From a virus, in the IMG/VR virus record IMGVR_UViG_3300017782_000284, positions 1 through 20,965 of that record: a stretch of DNA of 20,965 bases; one strand, given 5' to 3'. The translations under genes were made by a program, and so were the position numbers. Within the stretch, counting starts at the first letter, position 1. The number at the start of each line of letters is the position of its first letter. Below, piece after piece: positions 338 to 13,071 of the stretch. The notes under the pieces are model-generated. The model was not told where the DNA came from and did no database searches. It saw only the letters and a list, made by a program, of their open reading frames with translations.

Positions 338-562
338 ATGATTAAATACTTCACCTTCATGGTGCTCACTTATTTTATCCAGGGTGAGCAAACCACGCAT
401 AACATAGTATTCCCTAGCTACGACGCTTGCAGCCATTCTAAGGAGGCTATGTATGCTATAATGGAATATCAGCATGATGATGTGCTAATTTACTGTAAGG
501 GCACTCAGGTGGCTTCTAACGAGCTTGTGAAGCCTAAGCCTAGACCCTATCTAAGCCATTGA
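338..562 (+). CDS. small secreted-type protein with two cysteines, 74 aa
   Basis: A GAGGAG at about 325-330 precedes the ATG at 338 by 7 bases. The first 14 residues (MIKYFTFMVLTYFI) are hydrophobic after one Lys and look like a short signal peptide or membrane anchor. Two cysteines, C31 and C53, lie 22 residues apart and could form a disulfide if the protein is exported. The tail is polar and Pro-rich (KPKPRPYLSH). The layout resembles the 53-residue product at 2281-2442 on the other strand. The last 16 bases overlap the end of the converging endolysin gene. Function unknown; a small periplasmic or membrane factor is the best guess. Confidence 0.65.
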   Translation: MIKYFTFMVLTYFIQGEQTTHNIVFPSYDACSHSKEAMYAIMEYQHDDVLIYCKGTQVASNELVKPKPRPYLSH

Positions 563-1161
563 TAGATTTTCTTAGTTTCTTTATTCCGATGGTCCAAGCC
601 AGTATAGCCACCGTTGACGCGCTTAGTGATTTTCTTAATCACCTCATCGTTTACGCCCTCTCTAGCAAGTTTGAACAAGCCATTGCTATTGAAGAACCAT
701 ATAGCTGTCTCAAAAGCATACTCTTTTTCTAGCAAAGATGGATCATTGATAACCTCTGGCTTACCCATGTCTGCTGCAAATGCTTTCGTATTATTATAGC
801 CAGTTAATTGTAAAAATCCGCGTCCAATATATAAGCTTGCCATGCTAGGTGTTTCATTGCCCATTCTGCCCACGTAAACCTTTTCAGCGAGTGCCTTGGG
901 GTTGCGTGCATACGGCTCTGCGCTTTCTTCAGTTGGGAAGCGACTAGGCCAAACCTTCATCATGGCTTCGACTGAGTAATTTAGATTCTCTTTGACATAC
1001 TTGAACGTACCGCTTTCATGCACAACTTGACCCAACAGGTGCGCACCTTCCTTTGGCGATAGATCATAGTGCTGCACAATAGCTCTAGCCGTGTTAGGCC
1101 CAAATGAGCCATCTGGTTTACAGCCGCACTTATCTTGCAGTAGTTTTAGCGCTTCACTCAT
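547..1161 (-). CDS. endolysin, glycoside hydrolase family 19 (chitinase-like lysozyme)
   Basis: This is the phage endolysin, expected to cut the glycan strands of peptidoglycan at the end of infection. Counting from the upstream ATG at 1167, residues 5-32 look like a short peptidoglycan-binding repeat (DGSFGPNTARAI) and the rest is a GH19 catalytic domain. HESGTF holds E51, the likely general acid; ENLNYS holds E60, the likely second acid; GRGFLQLTGYNN (116-127) and RVNGG (184-188) are typical of the family. There is no signal peptide, so release must depend on the holin. I chose the ATG at 1161 because GGAG sits 7 bases upstream; the ATG at 1167 would add two residues. It overlaps the spanin-like gene and is the last gene of the late operon. 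Confidence 0.93.
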   Translation of the reverse strand: MSEALKLLQDKCGCKPDGSFGPNTARAIVQHYDLSPKEGAHLLGQVVHESGTFKYVKENLNYSVEAMMKVWPSRFPTEESAEPYARNPKALAEKVYVGRMGNETPSMASLYIGRGFLQLTGYNNTKAFAADMGKPEVINDPSLLEKEYAFETAIWFFNSNGLFKLAREGVNDEVIKKITKRVNGGYTGLDHRNKETKKIYQWLR

Positions 1162-1426
1162 TGTCATTCTCCACAGGCTTCATTCCCCACTGCCTAGTAT
1201 AGCCGTATTCCTCATAAGCTGCAGCCCAGCGATTTTCTGTAAACGTGGCAAACGATATAAGCATCTCAGTATCTGTGTATAGCTGATCTACCCATTCGCT
1301 ATTCTCTGCGACTTGTTTCTCAAGATGCTCTATCCTGTGCGCTTGGTCTGACACCCACCACACACCAGCTACGATTTGCGCGATCATCGCTATAACAAGC
1401 GCTAAAGGTACTTTTAGATCACTCAT
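1154..1426 (-). CDS. small membrane protein with coiled coil, spanin-like candidate, 90 aa
   Basis: Residues 5-26 form one transmembrane segment or uncleaved signal anchor (VPLALVIAMIAQIVAGVWW), followed by a short heptad-like helix (HRIEHLEKQVAENSEWVDQL) and a polar C-terminal part. One N-terminal membrane segment with a periplasmic helix is the layout of an inner-membrane spanin (Rz type), and the gene lies between holin and endolysin, where spanins often occur. No lipoprotein partner (Rz1-like, with a lipobox Cys) was seen. The start overlaps the holin stop as ATGA. The spanin role is inferred from layout and place; an accessory holin regulator is an alternative. Confidence 0.75.
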   Translation of the reverse strand: MSDLKVPLALVIAMIAQIVAGVWWVSDQAHRIEHLEKQVAENSEWVDQLYTDTEMLISFATFTENRWAAAYEEYGYTRQWGMKPVENDNE

Positions 1427-1827
1427 TTGGCTACACCCTTAAACTTCTCAAAGCTACGCATACCGCCAAGCCCAAGCATACCAAGCAGAACAGTCATTAA
1501 GCTGTTCATGTCAAACTCAGGTAATGGTGGGTGCTGCACATCCAGCCAGCCCGTTATAAACAGCGTAACTGGTAAGCCTAGAAAGTGCCAAAATAATGCA
1601 AGGCCGCATGTCCACCCCACAAAAGGACGCCAGCCAGCAATAAATATATTGCGAGACTTAGCTTCCTCTTTGTTAATCTCAATTTGCCCACGGGCAAGTT
1701 CTTGGGCATGTCTTTCAGCCATTGTAGATATTTCATGTGCGAGCCTCGCTTTCTCATCTTTATCTTCAATTACTTTGTCTAAAATTCCACTGACAGGGCC
1801 AACCAGTTTACCTAATAGGTCCATCAT
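1423..1827 (-). CDS. holin, GTA-type three-TM family
   Basis: The holin should open the inner membrane at a set time so that the endolysin can reach the wall. The 134-residue product has an amphipathic N-terminal helix rich in Glu, Lys and Arg (16-58), then hydrophobic stretches near 62-82, 83-95 and 108-124. The sequence NIFIAGWRPFVGW followed by an aromatic membrane segment is characteristic of the family known as GTA_holin_3TM, and the C-terminal segment ends in a basic patch (RSFEKFKGVAK). GGAGG lies 7 bases before the first ATG, and the ATGA overlap with the EF-hand gene suggests coupled translation. A second ATG follows directly at 1824, so the start is uncertain by one codon. Confidence 0.88.
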   Translation of the reverse strand: MMDLLGKLVGPVSGILDKVIEDKDEKARLAHEISTMAERHAQELARGQIEINKEEAKSRNIFIAGWRPFVGWTCGLALFWHFLGLPVTLFITGWLDVQHPPLPEFDMNSLMTVLLGMLGLGGMRSFEKFKGVAK

Positions 1828-2174
1828 TGTTCGTCCTCCATTTTTATACTAGCTTTCTTGCTCTCAGCCTTTGCAGAGTAGGCATTGAAGCCCATAAACG
1901 CTGCAACCACGCCACTAGCTGCAATAACATAAACTGATGCAATATCTGTGATGAGGCTTGCAGCTTTGTCGAAACCAAGCACTGAGGCAAGCAAGATGAT
2001 GAACGGATAGATCAACATACCAGCCAATGCAAAACCTGTGAAACGTCTTTCTGCATTGCGCTTTAGGTCACGGTCAATCATCTCAAGTCTGCGATCTTCA
2101 AGTGCAATCTTATTCCACTCAGAACGCTCTATAACGCCATTACCGTTAGTATCTGCCTTATCAAACTCTGTCAT
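1824..2174 (-). CDS. EF-hand membrane protein, 116 aa
   Basis: The N-terminus carries a canonical EF-hand calcium-binding loop: D8, N10, N12, G13, I15 and E19 fill loop positions 1, 3, 5, 6, 8 and 12. A charged helix rich in Arg (21-45) follows, then two membrane segments at about 47-66 and 78-99 and a polar Lys/Glu tail. With only one EF-hand, the protein may pair as a dimer to bind calcium. It sits directly before the holin with an ATGA overlap, and its own start overlaps the stop of the 37-residue gene, so it is made together with the lysis proteins. A role in sensing Ca2+ or tuning holin triggering is an attractive inference but not shown; it may also be a structural membrane protein. Confidence 0.88.
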   Translation of the reverse strand: MTEFDKADTNGNGVIERSEWNKIALEDRRLEMIDRDLKRNAERRFTGFALAGMLIYPFIILLASVLGFDKAASLITDIASVYVIAASGVVAAFMGFNAYSAKAESKKASIKMEDEQ

Positions 2175-2442: not shown

Positions 2443-2919
2443 CTACCACCTACCTTGCTTACTACCCCAAAGATAGAAAAGGCCAAATAATAAAGCTGCA
2501 CCTATACCAAATATAACAAAACCTATCGCAAAGTTAATCATAGCATCTATTTGCTCTTGCTTGCGGTAAAGCTCATCTTTTCTTTGTTTTCTCATTTGTG
2601 CCTCTATTGACAGGACTTCTTTCCATGCGCTAGGACCATACGTCCAACTGATATGGTCCTTTATCTCAGCCCTCATTTGCTCCATCTTTTTCTTATTTGC
2701 AAATATCTCAATTGCTGTTTCTTCATCAGAGCCTTTGAAAGTCTTTTTCCAAAATGGAGGATCTTTTTCTCGCTTTTCTATTTCATTAAAGTCGCTGAAA
2801 GCCTTGCCCCAAGTTGACAGTTGGCTTGTCATATCTTGAAAGTCACGCCCCGCTGCGACTGCTCCCTTAAGTGCTTTGAACGCTCCTGTGGCTAAAGCTA
2901 CGCAGCTAACGGGGTCCAT
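2443..2919 (-). CDS. conserved phage protein with C-terminal membrane anchor, 158 aa
   Basis: The product begins MDPVSCVALATGAFKALKGA, a short Ala/Gly helix, followed by a charged helical middle region (45-125) rich in Lys, Glu and Arg and a single membrane segment at about 129-151 with a short basic tail (GSKQGRW). From memory, proteins of this type are common beside the structural and lysis genes of marine podoviruses, usually without assigned function. It could be a holin-like or membrane-anchored protein acting in late infection, or a minor virion protein. The start lies only 3 bases after the preceding stop, without a clear Shine-Dalgarno, which points to coupling. Confidence 0.85.
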   Translation of the reverse strand: MDPVSCVALATGAFKALKGAVAAGRDFQDMTSQLSTWGKAFSDFNEIEKREKDPPFWKKTFKGSDEETAIEIFANKKKMEQMRAEIKDHISWTYGPSAWKEVLSIEAQMRKQRKDELYRKQEQIDAMINFAIGFVIFGIGAALLFGLFYLWGSKQGRW

Positions 2920-11382: not shown

Positions 11383-13071
11383 CTATCCTTTCGCTGCTGC
11401 GATTTTTTCTATGTCTTTTAGAGTTGCGCTACTTATTCCTGTTTTCTCTTGGAAAGTGTTTAAGTTGCCGCCAAATTTTTCCATAAAGCTATCCACGTAA
11501 GCTCCTAAATTGCCGTCACGAGCCGCTTGATCTAAAACCTTGCGAGTTTCTTTTACACTACCTTTGCCAGTAGGTATGCTTTTCTGATCTAAATTAGCCT
11601 GATCTACTACATCTGAAGTTGTTAACGTGCCGAATTGACGCTCAAGAGCCATTATTTGATCCCCAGCTAAATTCGTGCCCTCGTCAAGCAACGCTTGACC
11701 GCCAAATGTCTCAATTGCGCTATTAAGCTCGCTTGCCCTTCTTTGCGCTGAATTTTCAGTACTTGCAGCTCTAGCCGCTATTTCATCTACAAGCCTTGCT
11801 TCAGCCTCTGGGGTTGCAGGGCCAAAAATGCTAGATAAAACACCAGGCTCAGGAGTATTGTAGCCTGCCGCCGCTGCAAGTGCAGGGTCAACCTGGCCTG
11901 CGCCATAACCCACACTTACGCTTGATCCAAATGGATTTGTGAATGTATTGTTACGACCCTGCTTGGATGGGTCTGCGTAGGTTGAAAAATCGTAACCTTG
12001 CGTTGATAGACCTACAGGAAAATCACTAGCTGATCTAATACCATCGTAAAAATCATCTGCCATAGGTGTAAGACCTTCTGCGCCAGACTGACTTCGCAGA
12101 TACTCTTGACCAATTTGTGCTGCCTCTAAACCCTCTGCACTTGGGTCTAGCGTGCCGACGTATTGCGCTGTGCTTGGGCTAATAAACTGAGGCGTGCCAT
12201 CTGGATTTAAATAATCAATGTCAGGATTGTAGAACTGATACTTTTGCCCTGGCACGTCTGGTATTTCAAAACCAGTGCCAATGAGGTTTGCGTTTAGTGC
12301 ATCTAAATTCGTCTCTGCAATAGCGTCACCAGGCTGGGCTTCACTCAACGGCACAATCGGAGGCGTTGGGTCTGGCCCAAAAATTTCTCCTAAAATTGGA
12401 ATTTCTGGTAAAAATGGAATGATAGGCACTGGAAACTCTGGCGGCGTATACGGGATCACGGGAACCTCTGGAGGACCACCTGGGCCACCTGGACCGCTCG
12501 GACCGCCTGGACCACCTGGGCCGCTCGGACCGCTCGGGCCGCCTGGACCGCTCGGGCCGCCTGGACCGCTCGGACCGCCACCACCTGGGACGCTCGGGCC
12601 GCCGCCTGGGCCTGACCCACCTGGGCTACCACCACCTGGGCCGCCTGGACCGCCTGGAATACCTGGAACGACAGGACCAACTGGGGGCAATCCATATAAA
12701 GGCGCACCTGGGTCGATAAACATATCATTTATTGCAGCAAATTGGTTTGGTCTACGTCTGCTAAGCTCATATAAAGATTGCTCAAACATGGGGACCGATG
12801 AATAACCTCGCACACCACCTGCAAAAGTTTGTGGTGCAGGTACACCCATGTCCGTTGATGTAGGTGTGCCAAATGCACCAGCTAACTGCTGAGTGCCAGC
12901 AAATGCTGCTTCTTGCTGTGGAGAAAATGCAGCCACTTCTGGGCCGTAATAAGGCACATACCCTAAATCACTTATGAGCTCCGCCCTACGTAAGTTTTCT
13001 TTAGCCGCATCCTCAATGTACTGTGGTACTTCAACGCTTGTAGTTGTTGAACCGCCTTTACCGCCTGACAT
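11383..13071 (-). CDS. structural/internal virion protein with collagen-like tract, 562 aa
   Basis: Residues 1-60 carry the signature [20 protein letters not shown] and [20 protein letters not shown], known to me from virion proteins of marine podoviruses. Residues 137-200 are a Gly-Pro-Gly/Gly-Pro-Ser tract able in part to form a collagen-type triple helix. Residues 201-241 are a Pro-rich hydrophobic part ([20 protein letters not shown]), and the rest is a mixed, Ala/Ser-rich domain ending in a helical part. AAGGAG lies eight bases before the ATG, which overlaps the previous stop as TAATG. It is the first of four presumed ejection-type genes. The tract could trimerise the protein or act as a spacer; an external fibre role cannot be excluded. 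Confidence 0.78.
12475..12672 (-). repeat. 9-bp tandem repeat coding the Gly-Pro-Gly/Ser tract
   Basis: On the plus strand, units such as ccgctcgga, ccgcctgga, ccgctcggg and ccacctggg follow one another with small changes and a few interruptions. Each unit codes Gly-Pro-Ser or Gly-Pro-Gly on the minus strand. It is the most repetitive and GC-rich DNA in the window and should be prone to slippage, so copy number may vary between related phages. Confidence 0.85.

Follow-up and report, generated by a model that had tools for sequence, protein, structure and literature searches.

A 116-residue membrane protein encoded in a virus record carries a canonical EF-hand loop, kept under selection, ahead of two hydrophobic helices, and its gene heads a run of four overlapping genes that includes those for a holin and an endolysin. 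We consider it a holin-like class II lysis protein, or else a holin partner, whose cytoplasmic Ca2+ site is under selection and would let Ca2+ sharpen the triggering of lysis, and give this reading a probability of roughly 45%. It draws on the conservation of the loop, the predicted membrane topology and the gene neighbourhood of relatives. The sequence itself shows the selected loop, the two hydrophobic helices and the position of the gene; topology, holin or partner activity, Ca2+ binding and a regulatory part for Ca2+ are inferred from these.

Gene layout in the window

The studied stretch (the window) comprises all 20,965 bases of the virus record. It encodes SU10-type portal and capsid genes, recognized by Pfam profiles. 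The features discussed here are as follows, each with the evidence for it.

1824..2174, minus strand: EF-hand/two-transmembrane (TM) membrane protein, 116 aa (open reading frame; Pfam EF-hand_5, E 2.1e-5; family profile)
2118..2153, minus strand: 12-residue EF-hand loop, residues 8-19, DTNGNGVIERSE (conservation in relatives)
1881..2042, minus strand: two-TM hairpin, residues about 45-98 (hydropathy, charge counts, AlphaFold2 helices)
1423..1827, minus strand: GTA_holin_3TM family holin, 134 aa (PF11351, phrog_3427)
1154..1426, minus strand: 90-aa protein with one N-terminal TM (phrog_19911, phrog_26926, phrog_8909)
547..1167, minus strand: GH19-type endolysin, 206 aa (phrog_181 endolysin, E 6e-47)
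2443..2919, minus strand: 158-aa protein with one C-terminal TM (phrog_32327)

The EF-hand protein, which starts MTEFDKADTNGNGVIERSEW, is encoded by the first of four overlapping genes and is followed by the GTA-type holin, the one-TM protein and the endolysin. The holin scored 71.8 bits against a curated GTA_holin_3TM cut-off of 24.8 (E 9.4e-20) and matched the phrog_3427 holin family at E 3.1e-34. The endolysin also matched PF00182 at E 2e-4, under the cut-off for that family. The 90-aa protein matched the Rz-like phrog_7686 at E 0.004, which weakly points to a possible inner-membrane spanin. Elsewhere in the window, a Gly/Pro-rich, collagen-like stretch lies within a 562-aa open reading frame (11383-13071, minus strand).

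The original prediction had the stop of the EF-hand gene overlapping the start of the holin gene, and this overlap is present in the minus-strand sequence as ATGA/ATGATG (...GGAGGACGAACAATGATGG). It had further proposed that both proteins are made from the same message. The overlap makes a shared message likely. Obligate translational coupling is unsupported, since the holin carries its own Shine-Dalgarno-like GGAGGA just upstream of its start and its translation need not depend on that of the EF-hand gene.

The EF-hand loop and the membrane hairpin

The loop (D-T-N-G-N-G-V-I-E-R-S-E) is canonical at every defining position, with ligands at positions 1, 3, 5 and 12, Gly at position 6 and a hydrophobic residue at position 8. 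The residues involved (D8, N10, N12, G13, I15 and E19) are exactly those first claimed for a complete EF-hand loop, and two hydrophobic helices follow it as described. With 24.2 bits, the single protein fell just short of the Pfam EF-hand_5 gathering cut-off of 25.9. That cut-off is a limit on scores and not a trait of the protein, and its filing as an EF-hand rests on the profile match together with conservation. A profile built from 36 family members matched calmodulin at E 3.6e-10.

Conservation was assessed on at least 395 family open reading frames, collected by scanning viral contigs with different family members (five scans) and with the holin (one scan). Loss of the loop in most homologues was looked for as a refutation, and the opposite was found: 261 of 267 distinct homologues keep it, all 261 of them with Glu at position 12. 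Glu at this position is a Ca2+-type rather than Mg2+-type residue. The six exceptions comprise two proteins cut by contig ends, two in which the loop lies behind an over-extended start, and two with a Gly-to-Asp change at position 6. Among 72 relatives sharing less than 90% identity, no residues of the protein other than D8 and E19 (loop positions 1 and 12) are fully invariant; 71 of them retain G13 (position 6), and only Asp or Asn occurs at positions 3 and 5. In 225 distinct DNA sequences of the loop, synonymous codons at the conserved sites vary freely, a sign that selection acts on the amino acids. In this family, Ca2+ binding has very likely been selected.

A search with the TM region only served as a check that was not biased by the loop. 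The loop was found in 77 of the 80 loci listed; one of the others was cut by a contig end, leaving 77 of 79 complete relatives listed with the loop. The remaining two (L486, near 4001, and L504, near 1170) keep the TM hairpin and have no EF-hand loop, making them natural loop-less comparators. In unrelated open reading frames of the same loci, the strict loop pattern occurred twice in 1.98 million residues, and shuffling the window EF-hand protein reproduced it in 23 of 200,000 trials. The TM-only profile also found 18 loci among genome contigs, nearly all of them from records whose titles name metagenome-assembled genomes or bins; these are probably phage contigs. Fourteen of them matched the loop, three were cut by contig ends and one had an unreadable base within the loop. 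A search of genome contigs with the family profile A4 returned no match.

The two hydrophobic helices span residues of about 45-66 and 76-98. By hydropathy and charge counts, positive charge flanking the hairpin exceeds that in its loop in 71 of 72 relatives, and an N-in/C-in topology with cytoplasmic ends is predicted. AlphaFold2 placed a short helix at residues 3-7, the loop, a helix at 17-66 that runs from the EF-hand into the first TM segment (TM1), and a helix at 69-115. Confidence in this model was moderate (mean pLDDT 74.7, with 54-63 over residues 1-20; pTM 0.40). Structure comparison was uninformative: the PDB yielded a single match (E 9.8), and the sole hit in BFVD was an unnamed viral protein (E 3.7e-4, 48% identical) that we took as a family member.

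These predicted features resemble those of class II holins, which have two TM segments and both termini inside (PMC9636201). Like S21 of phage 21, the protein is small, has two hydrophobic helices with a predicted N-in/C-in topology and is, in three of the five clades described below, encoded among lysis genes such as those for endolysin and spanin. Unlike such holins, it bears an N-terminal EF-hand and a long, predicted cytoplasmic helix, and its own holin activity is putative. The window protein matched no curated holin family above cut-off. For Phage_holin_3_6 (PF07332; Holin-X, holin superfamily III) it scored 15.8 bits, where the cut-off is 28.4. Weak matches to the same profile, over the TM region, occurred in 16 of 42 family members (E up to 0.05, best 2.3e-4). 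We know of no EF-hand in PF07332.

Part of the family has already been clustered, without a name, as phrog_27150. This cluster was matched by 22 of 42 members (best E 7e-12), with no match for the window protein itself at E 0.05, and PHROGs attaches no function to it. Isolate records label family members as hypothetical proteins.

Gene neighbourhood across five clades

We then sorted relatives according to the query that had detected them, kept loci having 1.5 kb or more of downstream sequence, and counted lysis families with purpose-built profiles. The fractions below describe sampled sets, with no more than 80 loci per clade and the clades sampled by query. Linkage to lysis genes held in three of the five clades, and linkage to a holin was not general.

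In the window clade, lysis genes were nearby in all 57 loci, with a holin-family gene directly downstream in 56 and an endolysin in 53. The holin slot was filled by GTA_holin_3TM (5 loci), a 126-aa family (44) or a 152-aa family (7). Profile comparison related the 126-aa family distantly to the GTA-type holin at 96-97% probability, against 16% at most for other neighbour clusters. The usual slot gene of this clade (L001:4348-4728) belongs to phrog_2524, a cluster of unknown function, and seems to be distantly related to GTA_holin_3TM. The 152-aa family matched PF11351 weakly (E 0.015), a match unconfirmed by profile comparison.

The CRP-345 clade had lysis genes in 36 of 36 loci, the next gene being holin-family in 25 and spanin-like in 11. 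All 74 loci of the CRP-9 clade likewise contained lysis genes (endolysin, spanin-like), with no GTA-type holin within the fetched flanks; here, absence of a holin means that none of the three profiled holin-slot families lay within roughly 4 kb. The cassettes of the CRP-9 and CRP-345 isolates encode no two-TM protein other than the EF-hand protein and the spanin-like one. Other tiny two-TM open reading frames are present in CRP genomes outside the cassette. Among isolates, the roseophages CRP-1, CRP-9 and CRP-345 carry the EF-hand gene beside or near endolysin and spanin genes, and the freshwater Limnohabitans phage DC31 carries it two genes ahead of the endolysin.

The remaining two clades differed. 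In the T4-like clade, a tape-measure gene lay immediately downstream in 44 of 55 loci and a lysis gene was found in 1 only. In T4-like pelagiphages and methylophages (L082:3962-4294; L083:3980-4309), the EF-hand gene is flanked by a baseplate-hub assembly gene on one side and the tape-measure gene on the other; in HTVC008M, these neighbours are annotated as such. For the CRP-207 clade, a recognized lysis gene was nearby in none of 73 loci. The tail region of the CRP-207 genome encodes a multi-TM protein built like a holin (L536:23764-24180), so the EF-hand protein is not the only holin candidate of that phage. Its gp73 (L084:3292-3873), annotated as 'putative lysozyme', matched the tape measure only weakly and has a single TM at its N-terminus, and the annotation looks doubtful.

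Homologues lying far from holin genes would have counted against the original prediction, and here the outcome was mixed. Linkage to a holin-family gene is almost complete in the window clade and partial in the CRP-345 clade (25 of 36 loci). Universal coupling to the GTA-type holin is ruled out by the fetched CRP-9, T4-like and CRP-207 neighbourhoods. Viewed in reverse, 61 of the 80 loci nearest to the window GTA-type holin had no EF-hand gene in the fetched DNA, which indicates that this holin does not need the EF-hand protein.

The 158-aa phrog_32327 protein (also L456:3478-3960) was encoded upstream of the EF-hand gene in 64 of 65 window-clade loci and also in DC31. It was found as well in 32 of 52 holin loci without an EF-hand gene, and CRP-345 encodes it among its tail genes.

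Calcium, lysis and competing explanations

The neighbourhoods of three clades make a role in lysis well supported there; those of the T4-like and CRP-207 clades speak against it. Where no other holin adjoins the endolysin, as in the CRP-9 clade, the EF-hand protein is possibly the holin itself. In the window phage, a holin-like or partner function would most likely be that of a co-holin or antiholin acting alongside the GTA-type holin. The T4 antiholins RI and RIII regulate holin timing in response to conditions (PMC9636201); they differ from the EF-hand protein in architecture and signal, and its antiholin activity is conjectural.

Control of lysis timing by Ca2+ could operate as follows. In a healthy cell, low cytosolic Ca2+ would leave the EF-hand loop empty. 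Once the membrane begins to leak or depolarize, Ca2+ would bind the loop and order the exit helix that runs into TM1. Because the predicted cytoplasmic EF-hand sits on a helix continuous with TM1, Ca2+ entry into a leaking cell may change oligomerization. Against this proposal, a lone EF-hand is often a weak Ca2+ binder unless paired. Bound Ca2+ could let the EF-hands of neighbouring subunits pair, and the altered oligomerization would give sharper lysis triggering. Calmodulin-type EF-hands (PF00036, PF13202) share the canonical 12-residue loop, but here a single hand rather than a pair is fused to a membrane hairpin. The phage lysin LysGH15 also has a calcium-binding, EF-hand-like site within a lysis protein (PMC4022735); its calcium dependence belongs to the CHAP domain of the endolysin, whereas the site described here is on a separate membrane protein.

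A real if minor possibility is that the EF-hand of this lysis-cassette membrane protein serves a structural purpose only, with Ca2+ stabilizing the N-terminus or the oligomer and taking no part in regulating lysis. Conservation of the loop and proximity to lysis genes are equally expected in that case, and DC31, a freshwater phage, keeps the loop, which therefore does not track sea-level Ca2+. A constitutive site is less natural, though, at a predicted cytoplasmic N-terminus, where Ca2+ is normally scarce, and the two relatives without the loop still have the hairpin.

The gene order of the T4-like clade bears on an unlikely alternative, a virion- or tail-associated membrane protein, for example an aid to DNA ejection, with a secondary or coincidental link to lysis. 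In HTVC008M, Melnitz and most of that clade, the gene immediately precedes the tape measure and comes after baseplate-hub genes. Three clades instead embed it among lysis genes, with start/stop overlaps with holin, endolysin or spanin genes, and a two-TM inner-membrane architecture is unusual in virion proteins.

A superinfection-exclusion protein of the T4 Imm type, blocking incoming DNA with Ca2+ as a cue, seems improbable. Proteins of this type are small, have two TM segments and block incoming DNA, so size and architecture would be similar, and the gene lies outside recognized lysis cassettes in two clades. Against this, none of 42 members matched the Pfam superinfection-immunity family, and linkage to lysis genes is strong in three clades.

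That an unrelated membrane protein came to resemble an EF-hand by chance, for which the single-sequence Pfam score slightly under the curated cut-off might speak, has next to no probability; this is ruled out at the sequence level by loop conservation, the profile and its calmodulin match, codon variation, the TM-only search and the rarity of the pattern, including in shuffles.

Our main reading also has a stronger form, which we hold tentatively and consider rather doubtful: a Ca2+-gated holin or partner in which Ca2+ from the first leak triggers collective hole formation, and which would be a candidate holin for T4-like pelagiphages and methylophages that have none annotated. The paper describing Melnitz does not contain the word holin and puts forward a curli pore as the counterpart of a pinholin (PMC9004378); in HTVC008M, no gene is annotated as a holin. 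With no holin named or annotated in these two phages, the EF-hand protein is a candidate there. It would offer a holin candidate for phages whose lysis is unexplained.

The family is common in aquatic phages, with several scans giving at least 400 relatives. Literature searches on EF-hands together with holins, roseophages or membrane proteins encoded by phages turned up no description of it, nor any account of an EF-hand on a holin-like membrane protein, many subscription papers lying outside their reach. If Ca2+ binding controls the EF-hand protein, phage lysis would gain an ion-sensing input, which to our knowledge has not been described. Should the Ca2+-gated reading be true, aquatic phages would possess a calcium-sensing lysis clock.
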